Source of the DNA: Halomonas sp.
GTDB lineage: Bacteria; Pseudomonadota; Gammaproteobacteria; Pseudomonadales; Halomonadaceae
DNA: 64,000 bases
Assembly: GCF_017983445.1 (NCBI RefSeq)
Contig: NZ_JAGOBJ010000001.1
Span: 499,632 to 563,631 of the forward strand
Direction of reading: 5' to 3'
The notes beneath the pieces are model-generated. The model saw only the letters and a list, made by a program, of their open reading frames with translations. It did not search any database and was not told the DNA's origin. A program made the position numbers and the translations under genes. Each line of letters opens with the position of its first letter. Positions within the stretch are counted from its first letter, which is position 1. Shown one piece after another: positions 23,300 to 58,388 of the stretch.

Positions 23300-23329
23300 A
23301 AAAGAGTTTGCATCAAAAGGGTTTGCATC
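23300..23329. repeat. 15-bp direct tandem duplication
   Basis: Two adjacent 15-base units, 23300-23314 and 23315-23329, share AAAAG-GGTTTGCATC with one difference (A/G at the sixth base). A third partial unit (AAAG) follows. It lies 12 bases upstream of the mutarotase start and between divergent genes. Confidence 0.85.
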
Positions 23330-23432
23330 AAAGTAGGCAGAATTGTCGCGCTGTGTGCTATGGTAGGACAAGCAAGACTTGTAGGTAAAACACGTACGTA
23401 AAACCCTGGCAAGTGGATATCAAGGAGGCACT

Positions 23433-23675
23433 ATGGGCTTTATTGCTTGGTTAATCATTGGTGGTTTAGCTGGCTGGATTGCTGGCAACATCATGCGCGG
23501 CGGCGGTTTCGGCATTCTAGGTAACATCGGCGTAGGTATTGTCGGTGCTGTGCTCGGTGGCTTCATGTTCAGTTTGTTAGGTCTGCAGGCGGGCGGTTTT
23601 ATTGGCTCACTGGTCACCGCGACGGTAGGGGCGGTAGTGCTGCTCTGGGTTATTAGTAAGGTTAGAAAAGCTTAG
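23433..23675 (+). CDS. GlsB/YeaQ/YmgE-family small membrane protein
   Basis: An 80-residue protein made of three hydrophobic segments linked by Gly-rich turns ('MGFIAWLIIGGLAGWIAGNI', 'GILGNIGVGIVGAVLGGFMF', 'GSLVTATVGAVVLLWVISKV') with a basic tail. This is the transglycosylase-associated protein family, seen in many bacteria as stress-induced inner-membrane proteins; their biochemical role is unclear despite the name. AAGGAGG lies 7 bases before the ATG. A hairpin follows the stop, so it is probably monocistronic. Confidence 0.9.
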   Translation: MGFIAWLIIGGLAGWIAGNIMRGGGFGILGNIGVGIVGAVLGGFMFSLLGLQAGGFIGSLVTATVGAVVLLWVISKVRKA

Positions 23676-23700
23676 CATCGACTAGCTTACATGGTTATTG

Positions 23701-23732
23701 CTGCCCGGCCCTGTGCCGGGCAGCGTCGTTTT
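23701..23732 (+). terminator. Terminator after the GlsB-type gene
   Basis: CTGCCCGGC (23701-23709) pairs with GCCGGGCAG (23715-23723) around a CCTGT loop. CGTCGTTTT follows, so the T-run is short. Confidence 0.65.
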
Positions 23733-23735
23733 GGG

Positions 23736-23780
23736 CCAATAGGTTTTAGACCAATAGGTTTTACGACAATAGATAGGTTT
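23736..23780. repeat. 15-bp tandem repeat, three units
   Basis: Units start at 23736, 23751 and 23766. The first two share CCAATAGGTTTTA and differ in the last two bases; the third (ACAATAGATAGGTTT) is degenerate. The array sits between the terminator of the GlsB-type gene and the DUF1266-type gene at 23868. Confidence 0.8.
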
Positions 23781-23867
23781 AGCTATCGGTCTTGGTACCA
23801 CTTTCCGTTACACTAAGGCGCTTTGCTCTAGCGCATTGCTGGTAGATTTTTGCTTTCGAGGTGTCTC

Positions 23868-26333
23868 TTGGTCGACGCGTTAAACGCCTGGTGGGCCCAA
23901 CAGTTGGTGCTCTGTGATTGGGCATTTACTCCGCATCCGCTCTCGGTGGATACGCAAGCGGCAGAGCAGCGCTTGCTGCAATTGGGGATTACCAGCCGTA
24001 ATGAGCTGGCGGAACAGCTCTTTCATGCGTTAGGCGCCTCGACAGGGCAAGCCGACCGCTTGCTGGGTGCGTTGGAATGGTCGGCGCTTGCCGGAGCGGC
24101 AGGCTGGCTTGAGGCCGAACAGGCAAGAACGTGGGCGCACCATGTCATTCGCCGCATTACCGCTGACTACAGCGATTTACGCGCCTGGCTTTCAGAGCTA
24201 CGCCGTGTACTGGGGGCCAAAGGGTGGGAAATAGGCGCTGACGACCGTTTTATCGATGCCTGTCAGGCGCTTTCTTCACTCGAAAACGAAGGTGAAGGTA
24301 TCACCTGGGAAATGCTTGAGCAGGCGCTGGCACAGCTGTCGGCGCCGGCCTCGGTATGGCCTACGGCACCTGAAGCCCAGGTATGGCGCTTAGGCGCGCT
24401 GTTTCGTCCGGTGATCAGCTATCCGGCAAGCCAGACTGACTGGCCGGACGCCGACCAATGGCTTGAGCGCATTTGGCAGATCAACGACCGTGAGCAGCTG
24501 TTGGAAGTAGCGCTATGGCTGAGCGCGCAGGGTGAACGTCAGCGCTGGGACATTGAAGCCCGTGAGCTGCTGGCGATGGATAATGCCCAGCGTCTTGCCT
24601 GGCAGCACGATGAAATCGAAGACTCGCCCTATGCCGCCGTACTCAATGCGTTTGTAAGCCAGGGCGAGCCGCTCGAATGGGCCGCGTGGGATTGGCTGCG
24701 GCTAGTGGAAATTGCCTGGGCGGGCGCCTGCTGCGGCTGGTTAACCCAGGCCGAAGCGGATGATCTGGCGTGCCACGCGGCAGATCTTATCAGTCACCGC
24801 TACCATGACTGGCACGCCATACTGAAAGCCTATATGCGCGGGCAGAGCCTCTTTGAAGGTGTTGATCGGCGTAATATGACGCCCAATGCACATCACGTGC
24901 TGCTGATCAACGCCCCGCATAGCCCATGGAAGCGGCCACCCACGACGCTGCTTAACGACTCGACTCGCCAAGCCTCTCAGCAGCGCATTAAGCAGTGGCG
25001 CAATACGCCGCATCACTGGCTGTTGGCGCTTGCTGGAGTACGCGAACCCGACGTCATGCTGCGCCAGCTAAATCCAGGCGCCCCTATCGATGAGCAGCGC
25101 CGCGCTGACGCTGCCCTTTATCTGCAGGAATCGCTTAGCCTGCATGCCGATGAAGGACCGCAGGTATTGGCCCGCTATTGGCTGCCTGCTCAGGCCCACC
25201 ACCTTAATCAATTGGCGGCCGATGCGGTGCATAGCGTATGGCCACCTTCGCAAACCCTGTTTGGCCAGCCCACGCCAGATGAGCTGAAGCAGCGTAATGC
25301 TGTAAAAGGCGTTAGCCGCCATGCGGCGACCATTCATATGGCGGAAAAATTCGCCTTTTACCTGCACATGGCTCTGGATAGCGATCTGTTTGAACGCGAG
25401 CCGCTGTTGGCTTACGCCAGCGCGCTGCGCAGCTGCCTGTGCCGCTTTTACCCCAATCCCAAGCGGCTGCTGGAAGCTTGGTTTGCTTGGGAAAGCTGCC
25501 TGCCCGAGCCTGAACACGACTCGTTGATCAATGAAATCGCCTGGCACCTGGATGATCCGGGCAGCCTGTTTTACTGGCTTGACTGGCAGCATGATGCCTG
25601 GTGTGAGCCGGGTGGACGCCCGACCCTGACGCACTTTACCGCTATGTCGCTGGTCGGGCCGCTTAATAGCGCCGTATGGTGCGAGCCCCAGCTTGAAAGC
25701 CCGCGCGAGTGTGACGATATTCGCGAATGGGTCGAGAGTCATTATCACCTGACCAGCGCCGCCGATATGCAAGAGTTCCTGACGTTTATGCTCGATGCCG
25801 GCGATCGCCAGGAATACCAGATCAACTACGCGCCTTACACGCTGAACCCGGAGCGCCTAAAAGCTGAAATTGCCATTTTAGAGTCGGGTGACTGCGCTGA
25901 AGAGGAGCGTCATCACCTGCTGCGCTTGCGCCGCGTGCAGGCAAACGAAGATAATTGTAATGATGTTGACATGGCCGCGTGGGATATTGCCCAGCTGGTT
26001 GATTTGGCCATTGCTGCCCGGCAGCTGGGCTGGTTGGAACGTCAGGGATTTGCTGAGGTATTGGATCGTGCGTATCAGCTAGCGGCCGATCACTACGCCG
26101 GCTGGCAAGAGTATGCTGCAGGTATGTATGCTGGGTTTTCATTTTTTATGGGTGAAACGCCGGAACGCGAGAGTTTTCTAGCGGGATTTCGTCAAGCCAT
26201 GGTGGCCTGGGTTTGTGGGGCACCGATTCTTGCCGGGCCCTGGGCCAGCCTCGATTTCCCGGGCAATAAGCCGCGCCATTTTGCGCCATTACACATTGAC
26301 ACCTTGCCGGGTGATCAGCGAACACTACATTGA
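23868..26333 (+). CDS. Large DUF1266-type protein with repeated module
   Basis: An 821-residue acidic, Trp-rich protein without signal peptide or membrane helix, so probably cytoplasmic. The C-terminal 110 residues ('AAWDIAQLVDLAIAARQLGW' through 'ADHYAGWQEYAAGMYAGFSFF') match the pattern of DUF1266. A second copy lies near residues 270-330 ('AAWDWLRLVEIAWAGACCGW', then 'YHDWHAILKAYMRGQSLFEG'), aligning without gaps, and a weaker third near 80-130. No catalytic motif is recognised. The start is TTG 23868, chosen because GAGG lies 6 bases before it; TTG 23850 is in frame too. DUF1266 proteins have no established function. The gene appears alone on its transcript. Confidence 0.8.
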   Translation: MVDALNAWWAQQLVLCDWAFTPHPLSVDTQAAEQRLLQLGITSRNELAEQLFHALGASTGQADRLLGALEWSALAGAAGWLEAEQARTWAHHVIRRITADYSDLRAWLSELRRVLGAKGWEIGADDRFIDACQALSSLENEGEGITWEMLEQALAQLSAPASVWPTAPEAQVWRLGALFRPVISYPASQTDWPDADQWLERIWQINDREQLLEVALWLSAQGERQRWDIEARELLAMDNAQRLAWQHDEIEDSPYAAVLNAFVSQGEPLEWAAWDWLRLVEIAWAGACCGWLTQAEADDLACHAADLISHRYHDWHAILKAYMRGQSLFEGVDRRNMTPNAHHVLLINAPHSPWKRPPTTLLNDSTRQASQQRIKQWRNTPHHWLLALAGVREPDVMLRQLNPGAPIDEQRRADAALYLQESLSLHADEGPQVLARYWLPAQAHHLNQLAADAVHSVWPPSQTLFGQPTPDELKQRNAVKGVSRHAATIHMAEKFAFYLHMALDSDLFEREPLLAYASALRSCLCRFYPNPKRLLEAWFAWESCLPEPEHDSLINEIAWHLDDPGSLFYWLDWQHDAWCEPGGRPTLTHFTAMSLVGPLNSAVWCEPQLESPRECDDIREWVESHYHLTSAADMQEFLTFMLDAGDRQEYQINYAPYTLNPERLKAEIAILESGDCAEEERHHLLRLRRVQANEDNCNDVDMAAWDIAQLVDLAIAARQLGWLERQGFAEVLDRAYQLAADHYAGWQEYAAGMYAGFSFFMGETPERESFLAGFRQAMVAWVCGAPILAGPWASLDFPGNKPRHFAPLHIDTLPGDQRTLH

Positions 26334-26418
26334 GGCTCGCCAACCATGTACGACCTAGCTTATAGTCTACCGCGTGTTATTACTTATACCCTTTCCATAA
26401 TAGTACGAGGTTAATCGC

Positions 26419-27051
26419 ATGGTTGCGTTGCCACACCCCGCTGTGACCGCTGTCCGTGTTGTAAGTGTTTGTGTTGTCGTTGCTTATCTTTCTGGTTGTG
26501 CAGGCTCTTCACGTCAATCCATTGAGCCCCCTGAAGATTACTTCGCGATGACACTGCCAGGGATGACAAAAGGTTCTACCCCACAAATGTCACCCATTAA
26601 TAATTCTGTTGCACAGTTACGTAGTTTTCAGACACCTCCACCTACGTTTGTACGCCAAGCGCTAATGGAGCAACACCAGCGATGGGCCGGGACGCCTTAC
26701 CGCATCGGTGGGACTTCAGCGGGAGGCATCGACTGTTCAGCGTTGGTACGCAATGTTTTTCGCGATACGTTTGGTCTAGAATTACCCCGTTCGACTTACG
26801 ATCAGGTACATGAGGGACGCTCGATCGACCGCCAAGAGCTGCAGGCGGGCGATCTGGTGTTCTTCCGTCCCCCCGGCAACAACCATGTGGGGATTTATGT
26901 AGGCGATGGTTACTTTTTACATGCGTCTACATCGCAAGGGGTGATTATTTCCAGTCTGGATAACAGTTACTGGCAGCGTTATTACTGGCAGTCACGGCGA
27001 GCACTGGAGCCAACCAATCTGGCTTATCTGGGCAGTAACTTTACGCCGTGA
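26419..27051 (+). CDS. NlpC/P60-family lipoprotein (cell-wall endopeptidase)
   Basis: A 210-residue secreted lipoprotein. A signal peptide ends in the lipobox LSGC (Cys27), followed by a linker rich in Ser, Pro and Thr to about residue 75. The papain-like NlpC/P60 domain has Cys106 in 'GGIDCSALVRNVF', His156 in 'NNHVGIYVGDGYFLHAST' and a third polar position at His168, the Cys-His-His triad of gamma-D-glutamyl-diaminopimelate endopeptidases such as Spr/MepS and NlpC. The residue after the lipid Cys is Ala, so it should be sorted to the outer membrane. It lies 36 bases before the MFS gene. Cleavage specificity is an inference. Confidence 0.9.
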   Translation: MVALPHPAVTAVRVVSVCVVVAYLSGCAGSSRQSIEPPEDYFAMTLPGMTKGSTPQMSPINNSVAQLRSFQTPPPTFVRQALMEQHQRWAGTPYRIGGTSAGGIDCSALVRNVFRDTFGLELPRSTYDQVHEGRSIDRQELQAGDLVFFRPPGNNHVGIYVGDGYFLHASTSQGVIISSLDNSYWQRYYWQSRRALEPTNLAYLGSNFTP

Positions 27052-27087
27052 GGTTGGTTGATCACGCTGCTTACGCTTAGGGATGGC

Positions 27088-28275: not shown

Positions 28276-28292
28276 ATCCGGTCTTAAATATC

Positions 28293-28907
28293 TCAGCTGA
28301 CCTCTAATTGACCGCTCTTGAGATGATAATGGCGGTTGCAAAGCCGCTTGATCAAGGCTTTATCATGGCTGATGACCAAAACACCAAGCTTTCGCGTTTG
28401 CGCCTCGTCTTTTAACGCTTGCCAAAGCTCTACCTGGGTAATCGGGTCAAGCATCGTTGAGATTTCATCGGCAATCAAATAGCGCACTCCAGGTGCTAAA
28501 GCCCGCAGTACGCAGATACGCTGCAGTTCGCCGCCGGAAAGCGTTCCAGGCAGGCGCTTTAACCAGTCCGGCTTGATGCCGAAAGCACGGCACAGCGTAT
28601 CAGGCGGCGACCACGCCTCGTTCAGCACGCGACCTACTCGCCAACGCGGGTTAACCGCAAGCTCCGGCGATTGGGGCAACCACTGCACCGGCTTTAAGCC
28701 GCGGGCTGGCAGCTTTTCACCATCCACTACAATACGCCCACTGCGGGGTGCATAATAGCCCGCAAGCAACTGGCCGAGCGTGGATTTTCCCGCGCCTGAA
28801 TCGCCGCTGAGCCCCACCCATTCGCCAGCGTTTACACCCATTGAAAGGCTTTTCAACAGCAGTGGCTGTGCCTTGAAAGCAAGGCTTATCTGGCAGGCTT
28901 CAAGCAA
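28293..28907 (-). CDS. nikE: Nickel ABC transporter ATPase (NikE-like), short form
   Basis: A 204-residue ATPase of the dipeptide/nickel importer type. It has Walker A 'GDSGAGKSTLGQLLAG', the signature 'LSGGELQRICVLRALA', Walker B 'YLIADEIST' and a switch His in 'LGVLVISHDK'. It is shorter than E. coli NikE (about 268) because it ends soon after the switch region and lacks the usual C-terminal oligopeptide-transporter tail. The start is a TTG at 28907, behind AAGGAGG with 8 bases of overlap with nikD; upstream in-frame ATG codons lie deep inside nikD. Last gene of the operon. The nickel assignment rests on nikR context. Confidence 0.8.
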   Translation of the reverse strand: MLEACQISLAFKAQPLLLKSLSMGVNAGEWVGLSGDSGAGKSTLGQLLAGYYAPRSGRIVVDGEKLPARGLKPVQWLPQSPELAVNPRWRVGRVLNEAWSPPDTLCRAFGIKPDWLKRLPGTLSGGELQRICVLRALAPGVRYLIADEISTMLDPITQVELWQALKDEAQTRKLGVLVISHDKALIKRLCNRHYHLKSGQLEVS

Positions 28908-29721
28908 CGCTCTCCTCCTTCTTGTGCAGTATTTCTGAAGTGCTAAAGGCATTGTCCGGCAGGGCCTGCCAAAGTGCCTGTGCGTAAGCGCTTTTAAGGG
29001 TTTCACCCATACCGGTAAAGGCGTTGGCGGGGGCTGTTTCAACACTGCGGCCCTGATGCATGATAGTTACGTGATCGGCGATGGGCAGCACATGGCGTAA
29101 ATCGTGGGTAATCAAGATCACCGCCTTGCCTTGATGGGTAAGTGAACGTAGCGCGCTGAGCACTCGATCGCGTTGAGCGGGGTCCAGGCCAACGGTGGGT
29201 TCGTCGGCGATAATAAGAGACGCTTGGCCGACATGAGCCATGGCCGTGAGCACTCGACGCGCCATTCCGCCCGATAGTTCGTGGGGGTAGGCGCGGCCTG
29301 CGCGATCATTAAGCTGGTAGTGGTCCAGCGCTTGCCCGGCGGCCTGCCAGGCGGCCTTTTGGCCAAGACCCGCGCGGTTTGCCGCCCAGCTGACCTGACG
29401 TTGGGTACGTACCAGCGGGTCGAGCGCGTTTAAGGACTGAGGTATTAGCGCAAGATGACGGCCACGCAAGTGCCGCTGGCGCTTGGCATCCAGCAGCATC
29501 TCCTGATAAAAGCACTGGCCGCTTAGCCGCGCATCGGCAGGTAGTAACCCCATGATGGTATGCGCCAGCAGACTTTTACCCGCCCCTGATGCGCCAACTA
29601 CCGCGTGTAGACTGCCCGCCATCGCCCTAAACGAAAGCTGATCCAGGTGCGTTGCAAAGCGGCGCTGCCACCAGCGTGGATAGTAGGGAAGCTCTAGGGT
29701 TAACTGCTCAATGCGTAACAT
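28900..29721 (-). CDS. nikD: Nickel ABC transporter ATPase (NikD-like)
   Basis: A 273-residue nucleotide-binding subunit. Walker A is 'VVGASGAGKSLLAHTIMGLL', the signature is 'LSGGMARRVLTAMA', Walker B is 'LIIADEPTVGLDP', and 'VILITHDLRHVLPIAD' holds the switch His. It would pair with NikE to drive import through NikBC. The ATG at 29721 follows AAAGGAACG. That ribosome site is itself the last unit of a 16-bp tandem array filling the 74-base gap after nikC, an unusual arrangement inside an operon. The open frame extends upstream through the array but has no family resemblance there. Confidence 0.84.
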   Translation of the reverse strand: MLRIEQLTLELPYYPRWWQRRFATHLDQLSFRAMAGSLHAVVGASGAGKSLLAHTIMGLLPADARLSGQCFYQEMLLDAKRQRHLRGRHLALIPQSLNALDPLVRTQRQVSWAANRAGLGQKAAWQAAGQALDHYQLNDRAGRAYPHELSGGMARRVLTAMAHVGQASLIIADEPTVGLDPAQRDRVLSALRSLTHQGKAVILITHDLRHVLPIADHVTIMHQGRSVETAPANAFTGMGETLKSAYAQALWQALPDNAFSTSEILHKKEESVA

Positions 29722-29723
29722 GT

Positions 29724-29804
29724 AGCGTTCCTTTGGTGAAAAGACCCTATGGCGAGGAAGTTCCTGTGGTGAGAAGTTCTGATGGAGAGAAGTTCTTATG
29801 GTGA
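29724..29804. repeat. 16-bp degenerate tandem array between nikC and nikD
   Basis: Five imperfect units begin at 29724, 29740, 29757, 29773 and 29789; consensus GAAGTTCCTATGGTGA on the plus strand. Read in the sense direction (minus strand) each unit carries an AGGAAC-like core resembling a ribosome site, and the unit nearest nikD supplies its actual site. A single extra base separates the second and third units. The array overlaps the last bases of nikC (stop at 29796). Confidence 0.8.
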
Positions 29805-30605
29805 GAGCGCGCGATGTAGCAGCGTTGCCGTGCGCTCTATGCTGAGCACCATCAGCAGTAGTCCCAGCCCAGGGAAAACACCCAGCCACCAGTAGCCGCC
29901 ACTTAGGTAGCGCATGGCATCGGCCAGCAAAATGCCAATGGCTGGCTGGCTAGGACTTAACCCGACGCCCAGAAACGTCAGCGCGGCCTCGTGCAGAATC
30001 GCATGCGGAAACAGCAGCAGCGCACCAACCAGGCAATGCGGCAGCGCATGAGGCAAGAAGTGATTCAGCACGATAAAGCCCTGGGATTTGCCCAGCGCGC
30101 GTGAAATACCGATATAGGGCGCATGGCGCAGCTGTAGTAACTCAGCGCGCAACACCCGTGCAAGACTGGGCCAGTGAGTGGTCGCTACCGCGATAATAAC
30201 CGCATGCATACCGCCGCCAAGCGCAAAAGCAATCAGCAGCAATAAGATAAGATGAGGCACGCTCAGCAGCGTATCGATCAATAGCTGCACCAGGGCATCC
30301 AGGCGGGGGGAAAGCATTGCCAATATGGCGAGGCTTAGCGCAATGGCCGTACCCAATAGAGCTGCCAGGCAGCCCACCCAAAAACTCAAGCCAAGCCCGG
30401 CAAGCGTACGTGCCCAAAGTTCACGCCCCAGTGCGTCCGTTCCCAGCCAGTGTGCGGCACTTGGGGGTAGAAGGCGTGCCTCAAACTGCATATGGCTCGC
30501 CAGCTTTGCAGCCCACCAATGGTTTGAAAGCAGTACTATCAAGAGTAGCGCCGCAATACCCGCGTACGCGATAGCATGCAGGCGTAAATGGTGGGAAGCC
30601 TTCAT
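29796..30605 (-). CDS. nikC: Nickel ABC transporter permease (NikC-like)
   Basis: A 269-residue permease of the DppC/NikC family with about six membrane segments. 'AHWLGTDALGRELWARTLAG' is the family's N-terminal block, and the cytoplasmic loop 'ALPHCLVGALLLFPHAILHEAALTFLGVG' contains the EAA-type coupling helix. Its start overlaps the nikB stop (ATGA). The 3' end runs into the 16-bp tandem array. With NikB it should form the membrane channel. Substrate specificity is inferred from the adjacent nikR and its operator. Confidence 0.85.
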   Translation of the reverse strand: MKASHHLRLHAIAYAGIAALLLIVLLSNHWWAAKLASHMQFEARLLPPSAAHWLGTDALGRELWARTLAGLGLSFWVGCLAALLGTAIALSLAILAMLSPRLDALVQLLIDTLLSVPHLILLLLIAFALGGGMHAVIIAVATTHWPSLARVLRAELLQLRHAPYIGISRALGKSQGFIVLNHFLPHALPHCLVGALLLFPHAILHEAALTFLGVGLSPSQPAIGILLADAMRYLSGGYWWLGVFPGLGLLLMVLSIERTATLLHRALSP

Positions 30606-35551: not shown

Positions 35552-37150
35552 TTAACCAAACTGGTTCATCGTATTATCCTTGCCGCCCGCTTTAAGTGCA
35601 GCATCGCCGTGGAAGAACTCCTTATGGTCATCGCCAATATTGGAGCCTGCCATATCTTGGTGTTTTACCGTGGCAATTCCCTGGCGAATCTCTTCACGCT
35701 GAACGCCTTTTACGTAGGCAAGCATGCCTTCCTTGCCGAAATAGCCCTTGGCCAAGGTGTCGGTTGAGAGCGCAGCGGTGTGGTAGGTGGGCAGAGTAAT
35801 CAGATGATGAAAAATACCCGCATCGCGAGAGGAATCGCGTTGAAAATTGCGCGTCCATTCATCTGCCAATTGACCAAGCTCGGTATCGTCATATTCAACA
35901 CTCATCAGCTTGTCGCGCTGGTAGGCGGCCACATCCTTGCCGTCTTTTTCCCAAGCATCGAATACCTGCTGGCGGAAGTTGAGCGTCCAGTTGAACGAGG
36001 GCGAGTTGTTGTAAACCAGCTTGGCATCCGGCACAACGTCGCGGATACGGTTGACCATGTTAGCAATTTGACCAACATGGGGTTTTTCAGTTTCGATCCA
36101 TAAAAGGTCGGCGCCATTCTGTAAACTGGTGATGCAGTCTAGAATGACGCGATCTTCGCCTGAGCCCGGTTTGAACTGGTAAAGACCGGACGGTAAACGC
36201 TTGGGTTTTACCAGCTGGCCGTTTTGTTTGATCACTACATCGCCGTTATTGATATCGGAGGCGTTCTCGATAGCGTCGCCATCCAGGAAACTGTTGTACT
36301 GATCACCCAGGTCGCCGGGCTTGTTGGTAACGGCAATCTTCTGAGTCAGACCTGCGCCTAGAGAGTCGGTGCGCGCCACAATCACGCCATCCTCCACGCC
36401 GAGTTCTAAAAACGCGTAACGAACGGCGTTAATCTTGGCCAGGAAATCCTCGTGAGGAACGGTCACTTTGCCGTCCTGATGGCCGCACTGTTTCTCATCG
36501 GAGACCTGGTTTTCCAGCTGAATGCAGCAGGCACCTGCCTGAATAAACTTTTTGGCCAGCAGGTAAGTCGCTTCTGCGTTGCCAAACCCCGCGTCGATAT
36601 CGGCAATGATCGGCACAATATGGGTTTCATAATTATCGATACTGCTAATGATTTCCTGCTCTTTGGTTCTGTCGCCAGCAGCTTTGGCGTCGTCCAAGGC
36701 ACGAAAAAGATGGTTAAGCTCCCAGGAATCAGCCTGTTTTAAAAAGGTATATAGCTCTTCAATTAAATTGGCGACCGAGGTTTTCTCATGCATGGACTGG
36801 TCGGGCAGAGGTCCAAACTCAGAGCGTAGCGCGGCCACCATCCAGCCGGAAAGGTACAGGTAGCGGCGTGTAGTGGTGCCGAAGTGCTTTTTAATCGAGA
36901 TCAGCTTCTGCTGGCCAATAAAACCGTGCCAGCAGCCCAGCGACTGCGTGTACTGCGAAGTGTCTGCGTCGTAAGCAGCCATATCGTTACGCATGATCTT
37001 GGCGGTATAGCGGGCGATGTCGAGGCCTGTGTGAAAGCGGTTCTGGGTACGCATACGCGCAGCGTATTCAGGCTTGATGGCATCCCACTTGCCGCGTTGG
37101 GCTTCGCGTAATTGAGCCATGGCTTTAATATCGTTAAGCAGTCCAGTCAT
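35552..37150 (-). CDS. aceA: Isocitrate lyase, long form
   Basis: A 532-residue isocitrate lyase that splits isocitrate into glyoxylate and succinate, the first step of the glyoxylate shunt used on acetate, fatty acids and PHB. It is the roughly 530-residue form found in Pseudomonas and relatives rather than the 434-residue enterobacterial one. The catalytic Cys motif appears as 'SDEKQCGHQDGK', and 'IIADIDAGFGNAEATYLLAK' and 'LVYNNSPSFNWTLNF' are conserved blocks. GGAGGAATC precedes the ATG at 37150. Malate synthase is not in the window. A 13-bp tandem array lies 25-90 bases upstream. Confidence 0.95.
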   Translation of the reverse strand: MTGLLNDIKAMAQLREAQRGKWDAIKPEYAARMRTQNRFHTGLDIARYTAKIMRNDMAAYDADTSQYTQSLGCWHGFIGQQKLISIKKHFGTTTRRYLYLSGWMVAALRSEFGPLPDQSMHEKTSVANLIEELYTFLKQADSWELNHLFRALDDAKAAGDRTKEQEIISSIDNYETHIVPIIADIDAGFGNAEATYLLAKKFIQAGACCIQLENQVSDEKQCGHQDGKVTVPHEDFLAKINAVRYAFLELGVEDGVIVARTDSLGAGLTQKIAVTNKPGDLGDQYNSFLDGDAIENASDINNGDVVIKQNGQLVKPKRLPSGLYQFKPGSGEDRVILDCITSLQNGADLLWIETEKPHVGQIANMVNRIRDVVPDAKLVYNNSPSFNWTLNFRQQVFDAWEKDGKDVAAYQRDKLMSVEYDDTELGQLADEWTRNFQRDSSRDAGIFHHLITLPTYHTAALSTDTLAKGYFGKEGMLAYVKGVQREEIRQGIATVKHQDMAGSNIGDDHKEFFHGDAALKAGGKDNTMNQFG

Positions 37151-37174
37151 GAGTGATTCCTCCAGGGTCGTATG

Positions 37175-37239
37175 AGTGCTTCGCAGGAGTACTTCTCAAA
37201 AGTACTTCTCAAAAGTACTTAGCAAGAGCACTTGGTAAG
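37175..37239. repeat. 13-bp tandem array upstream of aceA
   Basis: Five units start at 37175, 37188, 37201, 37214 and 37227. Units two and three are identical (AGTACTTCTCAAA), four and five diverge after AGTACTT/AGCACTT, and the first reads AGTGCTTCGCAGG. The next bases (TTGCTTTATAGCT) may be a further decayed unit. The array lies in the promoter or leader of aceA, and shares its AGTACTT core and period with the array at 56539-56668. Confidence 0.85.
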
Positions 37240-48700: not shown

Positions 48701-48752
48701 ATACAGGTAGCGGCGCCGTACTGCGTGCTGGCTGAAAAGGCGTTATAAAGGC

Positions 48753-48971: not shown

Positions 48972-49130
48972 ATAGGCAGATCCTCACTTATTTAACGTAG
49001 TTTATTACGTAGTTAACAAACCAAAAACCGTTTCAGATTTAAGGGCCAGAGAGCTGGCACTTAAGAAACAGCGCTATATTGTGCCGTAAGCCCGTCGTCA
49101 AGGCAAAAAAGCTGGGTTAATTTGTATGCT

Positions 49131-49865: not shown

Positions 49866-49920
49866 AGCTTGCCTCCTTGGCAAATGTTCTGTTGGCAAAT
49901 AGACCTAGGCTTTGCCAGCA

Positions 49921-50667: not shown

Positions 50668-50785
50668 TATTTGCTCCTGTTACTGAGCACTTGTCGAGAA
50701 GCTCTGTGACGGCAGAAGGATGCTCGGTATGATGCAAACTCGCAAGTGGATTAAAGACGCCATTGAGGTGTAAAGGGAGAATCGC

Positions 50786-53700
50786 TTGAAAGTGAATAAG
50801 GCGGTAGACAAGCGAACGCAGCGTAATTCGCGTCAAGCACCATCTTCAGCCTCTTCTGCGCGGGTTAAAGCCGCGAAAGATAAAGCTCGCCGGGTTGGCC
50901 TGCGTTTACAGGGCTCGGTGCGTGAAGGCGTAGTGGTAATAATGCTCGCGCTGTGTGTTTTTTTATTATTAGCACTGTTTAGCTACCAGCCGGAAGACCC
51001 GGGCTGGTCTTACCAGGGGCCGGAAACGGATGTTCGCAACTGGATGGGGCCGGTGGGTGCTTGGCTGGCTGATGTTCTTTATTCGCTCCTGGGGGCGAGT
51101 GCGCTCTGGTGGCCGGGCATGTTTGGCTTTGCTGCCTGGTGGCTGATGCGCTCGCGTCAGGTGCGCTTTGAATTAGATCCGGTTGCCATTGCTGTGCACG
51201 CCGGTGGCCTTGTGCTGCTGATGTTTGGCACTACCATGCTTGGCGCGCTGCATTTTTATCACCCGAGCAGTATTTTACCTTACGCCTCCGGCGGTATTTT
51301 GGGCGAAGGGCTGGTAGGTACGCTCAGGCCCCTGGTGGGCAGCGGCGGCGTGGGCCTGATTGCTGCGGCCTTGATTCTGATTGGATTCCCGCTGTTCAGC
51401 GGCATGTCGTGGCTGCAGGTGGCTGATGAAGTGGGGCGTCGCTTATGTCGGATAGGCGGGTGGTTTAGCTCGCGCCGGGAAAAGCGGCGTGAGAAACGTC
51501 GTGAACGTGCTGCGCTGCGTGCTTCTTTAAAACCCGCACCGAAAGCGGAAGAACCCCCGCGGGCGCCTAAGCCCAAGCGTGATTCGGGTCGTGAACGCAG
51601 AGAGCCTGGCTTCTCGGCAGACGTTGCAGATGATATCAGTCGCCAGAGCGAAACGCTTTCTGAGGCGAGAAAAGCTGAGTCAACCGATACGTCCATACCC
51701 TGGGAGGCAACTGCTTTTGCAGCGGCAGAGCCAGCGGTGAAAACACCAGCTAAGCCCGTCGTTGCCAGCACGCCAGAGCCAGCGTTAGCGCCTGAACCAG
51801 AGTTCAAGCCCCAGTCTGAGCCAGAGCCAGAGCCAGAGCTTAAGCCCGAGCCCGAGCCGAAGTTAACGCCTGAGATAGCCCCTGAGATAACTCAAGAGGT
51901 TCGCGAGCCGAGCGTATCGGTACCTAACGCACCTCGTGCGGATGCCTTCTCGGCTCGTACCCAGGAACCAGCTCCGACGCCTGTGCCTGCATTTTCTTCA
52001 CACGAGCATGAAGACGAGACTGCCGCTGAAGCGCCTACCGCCACTGTTGAGCCAGCGCGCGAGCAGGCCGAGCCATCAATGATGATGCGGGCTTCTCGCG
52101 AAGAAGACGCCGCTGTGCCCATTGCCAAGCACTTTTTTGCCCAGGAAGAGGCTGACGATACGCCAGAAGATGAGCAAAACGAACAGGATGAGCAGGACGA
52201 GAGCGACGACTATAACGACGAGTGGCAGCGTGGCGAGTGGCACAGCGAAGAACCTGCTGTGTCACGCCCTGTGGCAGCTCGCTCTGAACCTACGCTAAGC
52301 GATGCTGAACCGCTTGAAGAAGTCGTGCGCAGTGAGCCTTCACTGACAGCCGAGCCGCGTCGTGAGCGCGTGCCTGAAGTGGTGCCCGAGCCAGTATGGG
52401 AAGATGACGAAGACGATGTGATGCTGGCTGCAACGCCAACGCCAACGCCAACGCCAACGCCAACGCCAACGCCGCCAGCACCTGCGCCAATGCCGACAAG
52501 TGCTGCACGTCACGAGCCCACTTTCTCGGCTGACGACGTGGCAGGTGAGGTAGACAGCGGTCCAACGCTTTGGACGGTCGAGCATCTGCAGAGCCAGCGC
52601 CCAGCCTTTGAAACGTTGCCTGAGCCCGAAGGCGAGGTGCCCAGTCTTCAATTGCTGACGCCTGCTGAACCGCATCAGCCTAACTACACGGAAGAACAGC
52701 TTGCCGATATGGCTGAGCTTCTGGAAGTGCGGCTGCGTGAATATGGCGTCAAAGCAGAAGTGGTCGATACCTGGCCCGGTCCGGTTATCACCCGGTTTGA
52801 AATCAAGCCAGCGGCAGGCGTCAAGGCCTCCAAGATAAGTAACCTGGCCAAAGACCTGGCCCGCTCGCTGATGGTGAAAAGCGTACGCGTGGTTGAAGTC
52901 ATTCCTGGGCGGCCGACTGTCGGGATCGAGATTCCCAACCCGCATCGGGCAATGATACGCCTGCGAGAAGTCATCGATTCCGAGCGTTTTCAGCAGGAAA
53001 CCTCGCCGCTTACCATGGCGCTGGGCCAGGATATTGGCGGTGGCCCAGTGATTGCCAACCTGGGCAAAATGCCTCACTTGTTAGTGGCAGGCACAACCGG
53101 CTCGGGTAAATCGGTCGGCGTTAACGCAATGCTGATTTCCATGCTGCTCAAGGCCAAGCCCGATGAGCTGAAGCTCATCATGGTCGATCCCAAGATGCTG
53201 GAGCTTTCGGTATACGATGGTATTCCACACCTGCTGGCGCCGGTAGTGACGGATATGAAAGAAGCCGCCAACAGCCTGCGCTGGTGTGTGGCCGAAATGG
53301 AGCGTCGCTATAAGCTGATGGCGGCCATGGGTGTGCGTAATATTGCCGGTTTCAATGCGCGTCTGGATGAAGCAGAACGCGCGGGCGCTCAGGTAGCTGA
53401 CCCCTTATGGGAGCCACAGCCCTGGGAAATGCATCAGCCGCCGCCGGTACTTGCCAAGCTGCCTTATATTGTCGTCGTGATCGATGAGTTTGCCGACATG
53501 TTCATGATCGTCGGTAAAAAAGTCGAAGAGCTGATCGCCCGCCTGGCGCAAAAAGCCCGTGCTGCCGGTATTCACTTGATCCTGGCCACCCAGCGCCCCT
53601 CGGTGGACGTGGTAACGGGCCTGATCAAAGCGAATATTCCCTCGCGCATGGCGTTCCAGGTTTCCTCACGCATAGACTCGCGCACCATTCTCGATCAGGG

Positions 53701-54130
53701 CGGTGCTGAAAGCCTGCTGGGCCACGGCGATATGCTGTACTTGCCCGCCGGTTCCGGCCCGCCTAACCGCGTGCATGGCGCCTTTGTGGATGATGATGAA
53801 GTGCACCGCGTGGTGGATGACTGGAAACGTCGCGGAGAGCCTGAGTACATTGAGGAGATTCTTTCGGGCGGCGTTTCAGCCGATGCCTTGACCGGTCTTG
53901 AAGCCGAAGGCAGTGAAGGCGATGACGCTGAGCAGGATGCGCTTTATGACGAAGCCGTTCAGTTCGTGACTGAAACCCGTAAAGCGTCAATTTCAGCAGT
54001 GCAGCGGCGTTTTAAAATCGGCTATAACCGCGCCGCCCGGCTGGTTGATGCCATGGAAATGGCCGGTGTTGTTTCATCAATGGGAACCAACGGTGCCCGT
54101 GAAGTGCTGGCACCGGCGGCCGCGCGCTGA
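50786..54130 (+). CDS. ftsK: DNA translocase FtsK
   Basis: A 1114-residue septal DNA pump that aligns dif sites and activates XerCD. Four N-terminal membrane helices (about 45-210, beginning '[18 protein letters not shown]') anchor it at the septum. Residues 215-625 are a long acidic, Pro/Glu-rich linker with EPEP and PTPT repeats. The motor has Walker A '[15 protein letters not shown]' and '[16 protein letters not shown]'. The C-terminal gamma domain '[33 protein letters not shown]' reads KOPS sites. The start is TTG 50786 behind AAGGGAG; GTG 50792 is possible. A terminator follows. Confidence 0.96.
52432..52475 (+). repeat. In-frame hexanucleotide repeat in the ftsK linker
   Basis: About seven copies of CCAACG (Pro-Thr codons) run from 52432 to 52475, encoding alternating PT residues in the linker of FtsK. 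A second low-complexity run of Glu-Pro codons lies near 51813-51860. Copy-number change would lengthen or shorten the linker without breaking the frame. Confidence 0.85.
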
Positions 54131-54166
54131 TGATGCGCCGGGTAATCGTGCAATAAGCGTGAAAGT

Positions 54167-54198
54167 CGCGCCGTGGGTGAAACCCTGCGGCGCGTTTT
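54167..54198 (+). terminator. Terminator of ftsK
   Basis: CGCGCCG (54167-54173) pairs with CGGCGCG (54188-54194), with GGG/CCC pairing inside, followed by TTTT. It lies 36 bases after the ftsK stop. Confidence 0.7.
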
Positions 54199-54327
54199 GC
54201 GTCTGACTAACCACATGGACGTTGTTGACGGTCCTCAGCCTTATTTTTCAGTATGATTTTTAAGTACTGGTTCAATTCGGCAGCGTATGTCCATTGAATC
54301 TGACAACGTATGCCCAGGGAGATCTTT

Positions 54328-54981
54328 ATGCGCGATACGCAAACTCTGCTTTCTTCACCATTATCATTGGCGGCTGCCGCCCTTGGCTTAACGTTTGCTG
54401 CCCCGGCTGCCTGGGCGAACGATGCCGCTGAGCGCCTGACTGAACGGCTTGAGCCGTTGGAAAACTACCAAGCCACCTTCGATCAAAAAATTCTCGACGG
54501 TGCTGGCGAGCGTTTGCAGAATGCACGTGGTGAAATGTGGCTTTCACGCCCGGGCATGTTGCGCTGGGAAGTAGAAGCCCCTTACTCGCAGGTTGTGGTA
54601 TCCGACGGTAACGATGTTTATTTATACGACCCGGACCTTGAGCAGGTGACGGTGCAACCGATGGATGATCGTGTAACGCACACCCCGGCGCTACTGCTGT
54701 CTGGCAATGTCAGGGACCTGACCGAAAGCTACGATGTGGTATATGACCAGGAAGGCGGCGAAGACATTTTCACACTGGTGCCCAGCTCCGCAGATACGCT
54801 GTTTGAAGAGCTGAGCCTGGTGTTTGACAACGAAACCCTGACCGAGCTGTGGATGATGGACAGCACCGGGCAGAAAACCATGATTACTTTTAGCGATATT
54901 ACCCGTAACGGCTCTATTGATCGTAGCTTGTTTAACTTTGATATTCCTGAGGGAACCGACGTCATCCGTGAAGAATTTTAG
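54328..54981 (+). CDS. lolA: Outer-membrane lipoprotein carrier protein LolA
   Basis: A 217-residue periplasmic chaperone that carries lipoproteins from LolCDE to LolB. A signal peptide ends near 'APAAWA'. The mature part has 'LTERLEPLENYQATFDQKIL', 'GEMWLSRPGMLRWEVEAPYSQVVVSDG' and 'LYDPDLEQVTVQPM', the usual hydrophobic-cup strands with Trp and Arg residues. Length fits the family. I start it at ATG 54328, six bases after AGGGAG; ATG 54310 is in frame but lacks a site. It sits between ftsK and rarA, the order seen in E. coli and Pseudomonas, but rarA is convergent here. Confidence 0.93.
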   Translation: MRDTQTLLSSPLSLAAAALGLTFAAPAAWANDAAERLTERLEPLENYQATFDQKILDGAGERLQNARGEMWLSRPGMLRWEVEAPYSQVVVSDGNDVYLYDPDLEQVTVQPMDDRVTHTPALLLSGNVRDLTESYDVVYDQEGGEDIFTLVPSSADTLFEELSLVFDNETLTELWMMDSTGQKTMITFSDITRNGSIDRSLFNFDIPEGTDVIREEF

Positions 54982-54984
54982 TGG

Positions 54985-55019
54985 TGATTAGTGATTAGTG
55001 AGTTGTGAATAGTGATTGG
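54985..55019. repeat. 7-bp tandem array between lolA and rarA
   Basis: Five head-to-tail units of 7 bases start at 54985, 54992, 54999, 55006 and 55013: TGATTAG twice, then TGAGTTG, TGAATAG and TGATTGG. The array starts four bases after the lolA stop codon. Confidence 0.8.
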
Positions 55020-55030
55020 TAAGCAATAAC

Positions 55031-55056
55031 GATCAGGCGCCCTAGGGCGCCTGATC
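55031..55056. terminator. 26-bp perfect palindrome over the rarA stop
   Basis: GATCAGGCGCCC-TA-GGGCGCCTGATC. The centre includes the rarA stop codon (TAG at 55044-55042). It may act as a terminator for either convergent gene, but there is no T-run. Confidence 0.45.
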
Positions 55057-56376
55057 TGCTTCCTGGTCACGGCTTTCCCGCCACGCCATGATCTCGGCAA
55101 AGCGTTTTTCCTGGCCTAACGCGCTGGGTTCGAAAAAGCGTGCTTGGGGTAAGTCCTCAGGCCAGCAGTTATGCGCGCTGCCTGCTGGGTAGCCGTCCGG
55201 CTCGTTATGGGCATAGCGGTAGCCTTCGCCATGTCCTAGCCGTTCCATTAGCTTGGTAGGCGCGTTGCGCAAATAGGTGGGCACCTCTACCTGAGGCTGC
55301 TGGCTGACAAACTGCTTGGCGGCTTTCCAGGCACGATCAATCCGATTACTTTTCGGCGCCACGGCCAGATGAATGGCGGCATGAGCAATCGCACGCTGGC
55401 CTTCATAATCGCCCAAACGCAGATACGCATCCCAGGCGGCTATCACCAGCGGCAGCGCCCGCGGATCGGCATTGCCGACATCTTCCGAGGCAATCGCGGC
55501 AAGCCTTCGAACCACGTCCAGCGGGTCGCCACCACCCTGCATAAACCGCGCCATATAAAGCAAAGCGGCATCCGGGCGTGATGAGCGGATTGATTTATGA
55601 ATAGCTGAAAGCAAGTCGTAATAGGCATCACCCTGCTTATCAAACGCGCTTGCCTGATGACCGATAACATCTGTCAATACCGCCATGGGCAGCACTTCCT
55701 GGCCATTTTCCAGCTGAGTAAAATCACACGCGGTTTCCAGTAGGCCCAGTGCTCGCCGGGCGTCACCAGCACTTGCATGCGCCAGGGCTGCGAGGACTTC
55801 GTCATCAACATGGATATTACGCTTGCCAAGCCCGCGCTTGGCATCGCTAAGCGCCTGGCGCATCACGCTGATCAGTTCTTCTTGGTCGAGCGCTTTAAGC
55901 ACGTAAACCCGGGCGCGCGAGAGCAGGGCGGAGTTAACCTCGAACGAGGGGTTTTCCGTCGTTGCGCCGATCAGGGTTAATAGACCAGATTCCACATGGG
56001 GCAGCAGTGCATCCTGCTGGCTTTTGTTTAAACGGTGAATCTCATCCAAAAAGAGAATAACCGGCGAAGTGTGCTGCTGGGCACGTTCCACCGCCGCACG
56101 AATCTCTTTTACCCCAGCCATCACCGCGCTTAAATGCTCAAGCTGAGCATTGGAGGCATGAGCGAGCAGTTCGGCAAGCGTCGTTTTTCCAACACCGGGA
56201 GGGCCCCATAAAATCATTGAGCGCACAAGGCCCGCTTCAGCCATGCGGCGTAACGGTTTGCCGGGCCCCATCAGCGCCTGTTGGCCTACGTAGTCATCCA
56301 GCGTCTGCGGGCGCATCCGGTAGGCCAGGGGAGCGTCATCACTGGGCGCTGAGCGCTGAGAATCAAACAGGTCCAT
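55042..56376 (-). CDS. rarA: Replication-associated recombination protein RarA (MgsA)
   Basis: A 444-residue AAA+ ATPase of the clamp-loader family that acts at stalled replication forks and binds SSB. Walker A is '[18 protein letters not shown]', Walker B '[20 protein letters not shown]', sensor 1 '[24 protein letters not shown]', and the C-terminal tetramerisation part has '[22 protein letters not shown]'. Length equals E. coli RarA (447). The start ATG 56376 has a moderate ribosome site (GGAAG). The last codons lie in a 26-bp palindrome. Confidence 0.96.
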
Positions 56377-56538
56377 ATAAACTTCCGTTGTAAATCTAGA
56401 CGTTGAGCAGCAAAGTAACTACAAGTGTGTATGGTAAACGGCGTATTGTCAGACTACCTTTTGCATAGCTTTCGCTAAAAAATGATACGAACAATACGCT
56501 TGCTAGCGTAATGCCTTAAGTGCATGGTGAAGTTAGTC

Positions 56539-56668
56539 AGCGTACTTACTGGAAGGTGCTATGTGCAGTACTTTTTTGAAGAACTTGTTTGAAGAACTTG
56601 TTTGAAGTGCTTGTCTAAGGTACTCGCTAGAAGTATTTGGTTGAAGCACTAGGTTTGCGTACTTAGCC
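56539..56668. repeat. 13-bp degenerate tandem array, ten units
   Basis: Units start every 13 bases from 56539 (56552, 56565, 56578, 56591, 56604, 56617, 56630, 56643, 56656). Consensus GAAGTACTTGTTT; the units at 56578 and 56591 are identical (GAAGAACTTGTTT). The phase is held for 130 bases without a gap while bases vary, mostly around the AGTACTT core. The core and period match the array upstream of aceA. Confidence 0.88.
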
Positions 56669-56670
56669 AT

Positions 56671-56729
56671 CGGTATAGACATACCGTGTATAGACATATC
56701 GTGTATAGACATGTCTTGTATGGATATAG
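56671..56729. repeat. 15-bp tandem array, four units
   Basis: Units begin at 56671 (14 bases, one short), 56685, 56700 and 56715 with consensus CGTGTATAGACATAT. The last unit has decayed (CTTGTATGGATATAG). It directly follows the 13-bp array and ends 85 bases before the hemerythrin-like start. Confidence 0.85.
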
Positions 56730-56813
56730 TGTAGTGATACACGCTTATGATTGCGTGCCCCACGCCACTTAAGGGTTAGGCGGTCGGCATGACACAACCA
56801 AGGAGACGGCACG

Positions 56814-57359
56814 ATGTTAAACCAACTGCGTCTAGATCATGCCAACATGGCGCGAATGCTCCATGTATTGCAGCTTAAACAAAAAACGCTGGCCGTGGGT
56901 GAGCGGCCTAATTTTCAGCTGATGCGTGAAGTAGTGGATTACATTCTGGCCTACATGGAAGGCTTTGCCGCCCCGTTAGAGCGTATATGCGTTGAACGCT
57001 TGGAGACTAAAGCCCCTGAGCATCTGGCGCTGATGGAGCAGATGGCAAGTGATTACCTTAAGCTCAAGCCTCGGCTACAGCAGCTTTCGGACAATATCGA
57101 TATGATCCTGATGGATAATATTCTGCCCATGGATCGCTTTGCAGAGGATCTGGGCGATTATCTTGAAGCGCACCGGGCGTACCTTCGTCATGAGCGTGAA
57201 GGCCTGTTCCCACTGATTGATCAACATTTTACCCAAGAAGATATGCAGGAATTGCTGCAAGCCTTGCCTGAAGGCGCCGAGCAGGATCTTGAACGCCTGC
57301 AGCAGGCTTACCCGGAACTTTATGCTGAATTACGCGGCGCAGAAGTACCTCCGGTCTAG
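56814..57359 (+). CDS. Hemerythrin HHE-like protein with altered metal site
   Basis: A 181-residue four-helix protein of the hemerythrin HHE family. Helix 1 has His9 in 'MLNQLRLDHANMARML'. The helix 2 motif, normally HHPxE, reads AAPLE ('GFAAPLERICVERL'), so both His are Ala. Later 'LEAHRAYLRHEREGLFPLID' keeps the His-Glu pattern of the last helices. With two expected ligands gone it may bind iron weakly or not at all. The ATG at 56814 follows AAGGAGAC. No operon partner: murI starts 143 bases later with its own leader. Function unknown. Confidence 0.72.
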   Translation: MLNQLRLDHANMARMLHVLQLKQKTLAVGERPNFQLMREVVDYILAYMEGFAAPLERICVERLETKAPEHLALMEQMASDYLKLKPRLQQLSDNIDMILMDNILPMDRFAEDLGDYLEAHRAYLRHEREGLFPLIDQHFTQEDMQELLQALPEGAEQDLERLQQAYPELYAELRGAEVPPV

Positions 57360-57449
57360 CCAGAAAGCTTAGTCAAGAGAGCTTCCTTCAGCGGTTAGCG
57401 GGGCGTGTTAAACTAGCGCCCCGTGAATGAGCGGCTGAAGGAGAAGCAG

Positions 57450-57503
57450 GTGTATCTATTCAAACCAAAGGCTAAGGCCAAACAAGAGCCAAAGAGGCAG
57501 TAA
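57450..57503 (+). CDS. Possible 17-residue leader peptide of murI
   Basis: A GTG at 57450 follows AAGGAGAAGCAG and opens a short frame of 17 codons rich in Lys and Gln (MYLFKPKAKAKQEPKRQ). It ends in TAA that overlaps the murI ATG by one base (TAATG). The murI start itself has only AGAGGCAG before it. This could be a translational coupling device; alternatively it is a chance frame. No homolog can be judged at this length. Confidence 0.35.
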   Translation: MYLFKPKAKAKQEPKRQ

Positions 57504-58291
57504 TGGCTGGCCCCGTGCTGATTTTTGACTCCGGCGTGGGCGGGCTTTCCGTAGCTCGTTCGCTGCGCCACCATTATCCCGATACAGCCATGTGCTACGC
57601 CTGTGATAACGCCTGGATGCCTTATGGGCTGCGTGATGACATCACGCTCTCGGCTCGAATTGTGGCCGTTTGCCAGGCAGCTGTTCAGGCCTGCCAGCCT
57701 AGTGTTTTAGTGGTCGCCTGCAATACCGCCAGCACGCTCGCACTTGATGGCCTGCGTAAGGCTTTGACGATTCCCGTAGTTGGTACAGTACCCGCCATAA
57801 AACCTGCCGCGGCCATCAGCCAGACGCGTCATATTGGCCTGCTGGCCACACGGGCAACGGTGGGCAGGCCCTATACGCAAAAGCTTATCGAAAGTTTTGC
57901 CAGCGACTGCATTATTACCCGGGTCGCGGCAGATGCGCTGGTGCTTGAAGCCGAGGCGCTGCTTGGTGGGACTTCTCCCAACACTGAACGACTTCAGCAG
58001 GCCCTATTACCCCTTTGGCAAGCGACCGATACCCAGCCGCCCGTGGATACCGTTGTGCTGGGCTGCACTCACTTTCCTCTGCTCAAACCCTGGCTTGAAG
58101 CGCTGGCACCTACGCCTGTGAACTGGATTGATTCTGGAGATGCCATCGCCCGGCGCGTCGGTCAGATAGCCCCGGTGTTAAAAAAAGGGCAGGATGGGCG
58201 CTTTTTCACGAGTGCGTCAGCCGATGCGCTAGGCCAGGGCTTTGCCCAGTATGGTTTTTGTATTCCAGGCCGATTGGAATTAAGCGCCTAA
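57503..58291 (+). CDS. murI: Glutamate racemase
   Basis: A 262-residue racemase that makes D-glutamate for peptidoglycan. 'VLIFDSGVGGLSVARSLR' has the first catalytic Asp/Ser region. The two catalytic cysteines lie in 'VVACNTAST' and 'VLGCTHFPLL'. 'YACDNAWMPYGL' corresponds to the substrate-binding 'D...PYG' motif. Length and motifs are complete. The ATG overlaps the end of a possible leader frame. Followed by an AT-rich repeat region and trmA; likely separate or loosely linked. Confidence 0.94.
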   Translation: MAGPVLIFDSGVGGLSVARSLRHHYPDTAMCYACDNAWMPYGLRDDITLSARIVAVCQAAVQACQPSVLVVACNTASTLALDGLRKALTIPVVGTVPAIKPAAAISQTRHIGLLATRATVGRPYTQKLIESFASDCIITRVAADALVLEAEALLGGTSPNTERLQQALLPLWQATDTQPPVDTVVLGCTHFPLLKPWLEALAPTPVNWIDSGDAIARRVGQIAPVLKKGQDGRFFTSASADALGQGFAQYGFCIPGRLELSA

Positions 58292-58336
58292 GCCGCGTAT
58301 TTTCCAGCCTGAGCTGACACTACTACCAGTACTAGC

Positions 58337-58388
58337 ACGGTTATTAAAACCGTTATTAATAACTATTGTTAATAACCGTTATTGAACA
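58337..58388. repeat. 13-bp tandem array with dyad, upstream of trmA
   Basis: Four units start at 58337, 58350, 58363 and 58376: ACGGTTATTAAAA, CCGTTATTAATAA, CTATTGTTAATAA and CCGTTATTGAACA. The first and last also form an inverted repeat (CGGTTATTAA at 58338 with TTAATAACCG at 58369). It lies 15 bases upstream of the trmA start. Confidence 0.75.

Follow-up and report, generated by a model that had tools for sequence, protein, structure and literature searches.

Local tandem duplication as the probable origin of short intergenic repeat arrays, many with an AGTACTT core, in Vreelandella

Why should the gaps between bacterial genes carry one short head-to-tail repeat after another, with differing sequences and similar periods? 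The question is raised by a window of 64,000 nucleotides (the whole stretch of DNA analysed, positions 499632-563631 of its contig) from a salt-loving Vreelandella of the Halomonas group, the genus being judged from its best-matching relatives. In this window an earlier note had listed nine arrays and ascribed them either to a replication or repair process that duplicates units of about one helical turn, or to a family of spaced regulatory arrays. The arrays are minisatellites that exceed chance, and relatives have no array, or fewer copies, at the corresponding places. The explanation that we favour, with a probability of about 0.72, is ongoing and mostly neutral local tandem duplication, with units mostly of 12-19 bp and with the heptamer AGTACTT as a favoured core.

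The excess over chance was measured in 864 kb of the genome under study (the window and 800 kb more, with 97.5 kb of gaps), using an autocorrelation detector and a custom gene-calling script. This sample contains 23 gap arrays, seven of them from the window, against 0.2 per shuffle; six of the 23 contain AGTACT. The units are head-to-tail and of at least about 10 bp, as in minisatellites or variable-number tandem repeats (VNTRs). Periods of 13-19 bp account for 21 of the 23 and none is 10, 11 or 21, and the idea of units of about one helical turn does not survive this distribution, nor the main range of 12-19 bp seen overall. Within genes, the same sample holds 19 arrays, all with a period that is a multiple of three, as compared with seven of the 23 in gaps.

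Four sets from outside the family (E. coli K-12, G441, G395 and G347; 64 kb of gaps, of differing base composition) yielded a single array in the 12-19 bp range and, with periods of 20, 31 and 60, five others. Stretches from other Halomonadaceae had array densities between 2.1 and 10.6 per 10 kb of gap, nine of the ten sets having been chosen at AGTACTT pairs and the tenth being one homologous Vreelandella region; with the AGTACT-bearing arrays removed, 4, 7, 2, 4, 12, 10, 5 and 2 arrays remain in eight of the AGTACTT-chosen sets. The stretches from G001, G007, G009, G020, G146, G245, G204, G135 and G126 are biased in this way, and one G441 stretch likewise spans an AGTACTT pair; those from the genome under study, V. 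zhanjiangensis and E. coli K-12 were picked without regard to AGTACTT, the window being that of the original finding.

For the named arrays themselves, each gap was shuffled 300 times with its dinucleotides kept. No shuffle matched the arrays at 23300, 23736, 29724, 37175, 54985, 56539 or 56671, and these seven of the nine can be taken as real. Two are marginal: the array at 14930 was equalled by two of 300 shuffles, and that at 58337 by one or eight of 300, according to the mismatch cost. The latter is also the only one of the nine that is not listed by Tandem Repeats Finder, and its best period is 12 rather than the 13 bp first given to it. The arrays, with the position by which each is called here in brackets, are:

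14926-14949, no strand (14930): 11-bp unit, 2.2 copies; marginal (Tandem Repeats Finder and shuffles)
23300-23332 (23300): 15-bp unit, 2.2 copies, just upstream of an aldose-1-epimerase-family gene (22419-23288, minus strand) (Tandem Repeats Finder, shuffles)
23728-23772 (23736): 15-bp unit, 3 copies, upstream of a DUF1266 gene (23868-26333, plus strand); common to both sister species
29727-29806 (29724): 16-bp unit, about 5 copies, between an ABC ATPase gene (28900-29721, minus strand) and a permease gene (29796-30605, minus strand)
37168-37239 (37175): 13-bp unit, 5 copies, core AGTACTT/AGTGCTT/AGCACTT, 17 bp upstream of an isocitrate-lyase-family gene (35552-37150, minus strand)
54984-55020 (54985): 7-bp unit, about 5 copies, directly 3′ of the stop codon of gene 54328-54981, which we take to be lolA; convergent with an MgsA/RarA-type AAA gene (55042-56376, minus strand)
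56541-56670 (56539): 13-bp array in ten rows, now decayed and in several rows heavily so, with AGTACTT and its variants as core; it lies where the AAA gene and a hemerythrin-domain gene (56814-57359, plus strand) diverge
56673-56727 (56671): 15-bp unit, 3.6 copies (Tandem Repeats Finder, shuffles)
58319-58359 (58337): weak AT-rich array of 12-13 bp, between gene 57503-58291 (plus strand), presumably murI, and a tRNA (uracil-5-)-methyltransferase gene (58403-59527, plus strand); marginal

The array at 29724 overlaps the 3′ end of the permease gene by 11 bp, and a Shine-Dalgarno-like AAGGAAC of the ABC ATPase gene, read by eye, sits inside it. The claim that the sequences of the arrays differ is only partly right, because those at 37175 and 56539 have in common the core AGTACTT with its one-letter variants.

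Comparison with two sister species, V. zhanjiangensis DSM 21076 (G079) and H. colorata FME66 (G013), reveals how such arrays come and go. Gap length is equal within 3 bp in 59 of the 76 gaps shared with V. zhanjiangensis. Thirteen of the 36 insertions or deletions of at least 6 bp are of tandem type (76 gaps compared with V. zhanjiangensis and 30 with H. colorata, some events being counted against both); their units measure 7 to 30 bp, and nine fall between 12 and 17 bp. In the gap at 37151, the genome under study has five 13-bp units where both sister species have one (AGCACTTCGC(A)AG-like, reading AGCACTTCGCAAG and AGCACTTCGTAAG), and the insertion in the alignment is exactly 52 bp, or 4 x 13. 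V. zhanjiangensis is one 15-bp copy short in the gap at 23289, in which H. colorata has two copies, and it carries elsewhere two 17-bp tandem-type insertions that are missing from the genome under study. The ATPase/permease gap with the array at 29724 measures 74 bp here, as against 41 and 32 bp in the two relatives; that at 54982 measures 60 bp here, 39 bp in V. zhanjiangensis and 94 bp, with a 14-bp unit, in H. colorata; and that of the array at 58337 measures 111 bp here, 117 bp in V. zhanjiangensis, 79 bp in H. colorata and 80 bp in H. citrativorans. Other arrays are shared: that at 56539 lies at the same place in V. zhanjiangensis and, by eye, in H. colorata, and is not recognisable by eye in H. 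citrativorans, while that at 56671 is near-identical in V. zhanjiangensis and is represented in H. colorata by 15- and 16-bp arrays. At locus L055, AGTACTTGAAAC units stand beside a terminator-like hairpin, seen by eye, and the array is missing in V. zhanjiangensis, whose site reads AGTGCTTGGGATAGTTCTTTTCA. The arrays therefore vary in copy number, unit sequence and period among sister species, and, like VNTRs, differ in copy number between related genomes. Sister gaps that lack the array or some of its copies, together with the excess over shuffles, favour the duplication of short units during replication or repair, which was the better of the two readings first offered.

The core AGTACTT emerged from the first 464 kb sampled, where it had the top z score among 7-mers enriched in gaps (23 against 5.9); over the genome under study alone, with genes and gaps taken together, it was fifth by z. 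Rankings that placed it, or parts of it, at or near the top with the help of AGTACTT-chosen stretches were not relied upon. Single copies are not enriched in gaps and the excess resides in the arrays: in the 864 kb, 17 gap sites lie inside arrays and 10 outside, with 12.6 expected overall. Among 7-mers that contain AGTACT, 15 of 58 gap sites are in tandem pairs, as compared with 701 of 100,069 (0.7%) for all 7-mers, each AGTACT counting twice; with the window excluded, the figure is 10 of 46.

Since AGTACTT was chosen from 464 kb, counts in the remaining genome and in the genus are an independent test. The pattern searched was AGTACTT N(4-14) AGTACTT, which allows only periods of 11-21, with TTCATGA N(4-14) TTCATGA as the reversed control; AGTGCTT and AGATCTT, with their reversed forms TTCGTGA and TTCTAGA, were further controls. 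Pair hits are not arrays, as several hits can come from one array, and a core that is its own complement may be scored once per strand. Genome-wide, AGTACTT gave 18 hits at 11 places, eight of them outside the sampled stretches, and its reversed control none; AGATCTT, AGTGCTT and their reversed controls gave no close pairs across the same genome, although AGTGCTT has as many gap sites in the 864 kb (28, against 27 for AGTACTT). Looser AGTACT pairs gave 16, 21, 20, 14 and 10 hits per strand in the genome under study, G030, G067, G079 and G037, against 3, 5, 2, 6 and 4 for controls. The contrast within the genome under study is strong: many arrays there have AGTACTT as their core, a recurrence that none of the five other heptamers approaches. 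Restriction avoidance of AGTACT within coding sequence was considered and set aside, its count there being unremarkable (84 against 109.7 expected; AGATCT, 76 against 114.3).

Across the genus, AGTACTT pairs occur in 69 of 82 genomes and the reversed control in 48, with 0 to 27 AGTACTT hits per genome (the most in G025). In a sample of the family they occur in 107 of 250 genomes, namely 65 of 75 inside the genus and 42 of 175 outside it, and in the class in 31 of 274, including the genome under study, mostly with one or two hits. Summed over the 82 genomes there are 383 hits for AGTACTT (TTCATGA 91), 193 for AGTGCTT (TTCGTGA 65) and 38 for AGATCTT (TTCTAGA 43). Relative to chance, taken from site frequencies in the genome under study, these are 18.7 (1.6), 3.3 (1.7) and 4.2 (13.1) times, respectively, and AGTACTT leads the six heptamers in both count and ratio. 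AGTGCTT was rejected as an equal core: its 193 hits are 3.3 times chance, it gives none in the genome under study, and none of its 38 sites in the unbiased gap sample is paired.

When loci were picked by pattern (11 in the genome under study and 40 in relatives, some being the same locus in several species), 48 of 51 gave an array. Their periods are 12 in 14 arrays, 13 in 8, 14 in 5, 15 in 11, 16 in 4, 17 in 4 and 19 in 2, and the linker between cores is repeated inside each array and different between arrays. Both gene ends are represented; six arrays run into the final 3-15 bases of a predicted gene, and three (L203, L212 and L235) fall inside predicted coding sequence close to the N-terminus. 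In these three, the frame read by eye is AGT ACT (Ser-Thr), and L042, L049 and L051, with an in-frame ATG upstream of the predicted start, are candidates for the same.

A mechanism can be proposed that would produce this picture. The first duplication would arise by strand slippage and the second copy would then ease further slippage; selection would remove copies inside genes except those that stay in frame, and point mutation would decay old arrays. The step of which we are least sure is the preference for AGTACTT, which might come from hairpins formed by neighbouring self-complementary cores, or from a protein that stalls or nicks DNA there. Among five AGTACT arrays whose folding as single-stranded DNA was assessed, three were unusually stable (z -4.1, -3.7 and -6.5), far beyond their shuffles, and three core-free arrays were not; hairpin-assisted slippage is accordingly possible. 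Most of the arrays are probably neutral, and a few may have been put to use, such as those upstream of lon and the Ser-Thr repeats at protein N-termini.

Several observations weigh against this explanation of local duplication around a favoured core. The duplication step itself we infer from comparing sequences. The other two of the five folded arrays were not unusually stable, and the palindrome cannot be the sole cause: none of nine further six-letter palindromes, including AGATCT, has more than one copy in arrays, and AGATCTT with its 38 pair hits does not exceed the 43 of its control. Since other palindromes are nearly absent from arrays, self-complementarity alone is no explanation. In the ratio to chance, the rare control TTCTAGA comes close to AGTACTT and, at 13 times chance, makes it doubtful how exceptional AGTACTT is among gap-rich heptamers of the genus. 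Hits per 100 gap sites of a genome like the one under study range from 1.9 to 3.9 for the six heptamers, AGTACTT having 3.8; these figures rest on gap counts of 3 to 8 for the four other than AGTACTT and AGTGCTT, all counted in a single genome rich in AGTACTT, and the hits still contain chance pairs from genes. In an unbiased gap sample, AGTACTT tandem pairs were found in three gaps, equal to several other 7-mers, and those of TTTTTAA in seven. The sampled stretches of V. zhanjiangensis had none of 16 AGTACT 7-mer sites paired, the whole genome giving 13 AGTACTT pair hits. The contrast is therefore weaker across the genus than in the genome under study, and the uniqueness of AGTACTT genus-wide is unproven. 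Lastly, two loci look like cases of constraint. In the gap upstream of lon (L271-L300, the best 30 of the matches from 80 genomes, the query's own included), 28 of 30 loci have three GTAC sites, spaced by 12 and 11-14 bp and adjoining a conserved CATCCGATTT box, lon and clpX having been identified by eye from translations at two loci; and an orthologous array in G002 and G003 keeps its core with the linker changed.

These last two cases are also the best hints of a binding protein, and the GTAC sites upstream of lon form a possible operator. They belong to the reading closest to the regulatory one of the earlier note, in which AGTACTT arrays would be homotypic clusters of binding sites for a putative DNA-binding protein, selected to control neighbouring genes. 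The recurrence of one core with unrelated linkers also suits it. We nevertheless consider it improbable as a general account, since single AGTACTT sites are not enriched in gaps, the arrays occur at the 5′ as well as the 3′ side of genes, span gene ends or fall within N-terminal codons, and the array at 37175 is missing from both sister species. An operator should also be tied to promoters, and on this point the earlier observation that most arrays lie within 100 bases of a start codon describes no more than chance: 14 of the 23 do so, and random placement in the same gaps averages 14.0. Nor does the core appear to be clearly protected in the old 13-bp array of the window, where it has drifted about as fast as the linker; divergence from V. 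zhanjiangensis and H. colorata is 10.1% and 23.6% in the core, 13.3% and 26.5% in the linker, and 6.4% and 9.7% in the rest of the gap, small numbers from one array. With their variable spacing, most of the arrays are thus poorly described as spaced regulatory arrays. Given the evidence for a common core, a protein that recognises it may still exist; a bolder proposal, which we regard as unlikely though less so than the binding-site clusters, is that AGTACTT is the site of action of a protein, present in Vreelandella and related genera, that would nick the DNA, stall replication or capture a strand and thereby trigger the repeated duplication of 12-19 bp of flanking sequence. If true, it would amount to a motif-triggered minisatellite factory, rewriting intergenic gaps, 5′ leaders and the ends of proteins throughout the genus.

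Dispersal of a ready-made sequence would be another route to the same picture, and AGTACTTGAAAC x n-like arrays do turn up at numerous further sites in the genus, the longest of them showing 82-94% similarity over 44-67 bp. A mobile short repeat, similar to repetitive extragenic palindromes (REPs) or bacterial interspersed mosaic elements (BIMEs) and moved by a REP-associated tyrosine transposase (RAYT), is nonetheless a very unlikely source, in that relatives show local copies of a pre-existing unit with no inserted foreign block, and linker and period vary by array. Presence of arrays also fails to track the gene for a Y1 transposase (PF01797), which has no match in G002, G003 and G079 (20, 16 and 13 pair hits) and 21 matches in G039, a genome of the genus with no pair hits, and a RAYT/REP system was rejected accordingly. 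Chance or an assembly artefact could be entertained for the two marginal arrays of the nine; for the set as a whole we give it almost no credence, with 23 arrays against 0.2 expected, arrays present in named independent isolates, and, in the genus, 69 of 82 genomes carrying AGTACTT pairs, even if 48 carry the reversed control. Two further identities were discarded. A CRISPR (clustered regularly interspaced short palindromic repeats) array does not fit, as periods are mostly 12-19 bp and the linkers repeat within each array, leaving no unique spacers; and no known RNA family was matched, a search of the window against Rfam 15 giving no match above the gathering score.

Local tandem duplication places these arrays among bacterial minisatellites, a kind already known. 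In the passages of the paper on Borg elements (PMC9879509) that concern repeats, fast-evolving and independently formed arrays are described in gaps and, in frame, within genes, with partial repeats flanking them and slippage discussed as their cause; the Vreelandella arrays resemble them in rapid evolution and in occurring in gaps and in frame within genes. The Borg repeats are described there as perfect and A-enriched, whereas the Vreelandella arrays are diverged, mostly of period 12-19, and return to the core AGTACTT at different loci and in different species of a bacterial genus. The satellites reported by Subirana and Messeguer (PMC6749651) are likewise short-unit head-to-tail arrays, and the paper mentions families derived from one heptamer, e.g. 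in Chloroflexus aurantiacus; its Table 1, of species with >20 satellites, has no Halomonas or Vreelandella, and unlike the satellites as characterised in that account, the Vreelandella family has a core in common and not a unit length or linker. Closer in lineage is Candidatus Portiera, for which the relevant portions of PMC5322561 and PMC7821994 describe proliferating short intergenic tandem repeats, an instability linked to loss of dnaQ, and use Halomonas elongata and Chromohalobacter as free-living relatives; Portiera is an endosymbiont, whereas the Vreelandella hosts are free-living. The best-ranked matches in the open-access literature, a scope outside which most subscription journals fall, contained no account of these arrays in Halomonas or Vreelandella. 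What is new here is one heptamer as the core of many arrays in a genome and a genus, a sequence preference that is unexplained and for which normalisation is incomplete. As the origin of minisatellites is poorly known, a recurrent heptamer core with differing linkers and periods is a natural system for the question. The arrays are also potential length markers for strain typing, and at some of them a change in copy number might affect translation or promoter spacing, namely at the arrays that precede the isocitrate-lyase and ABC ATPase genes in the window and, in relatives, lon.

Other repeats were met along the way. A CRISPR-like array with a period of about 60 bp lies in G395 (L156:13397-13968). 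TTCTAGA, with its 43 close pair hits over the 82 genomes at 13 times chance, may be the core of another array family, and G192, from another genus, has 56 hits of TTCATGA N(4-14) TTCATGA, a different repeat family. G380, from another family of the class, has 19 AGTACTT pair hits, consisting, among the matches listed, mostly of AGTACTT every 7 bp. The sequence AGTACTTACTAGGCTTAGTACTT (L165:19259-19281) is found in several genera, with the same letters in G014, G245 and G169, and lies about 0.9 kb from a gene that by eye looks like a relaxase; it may be part of a mobile element. In the window itself, a perfect hexamer CAACGC is repeated seven times at 52431-52472, coding for Thr-Pro repeats within the long gene 50792-54130, presumably ftsK; the same run has three copies in V. 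zhanjiangensis and eight in H. colorata.

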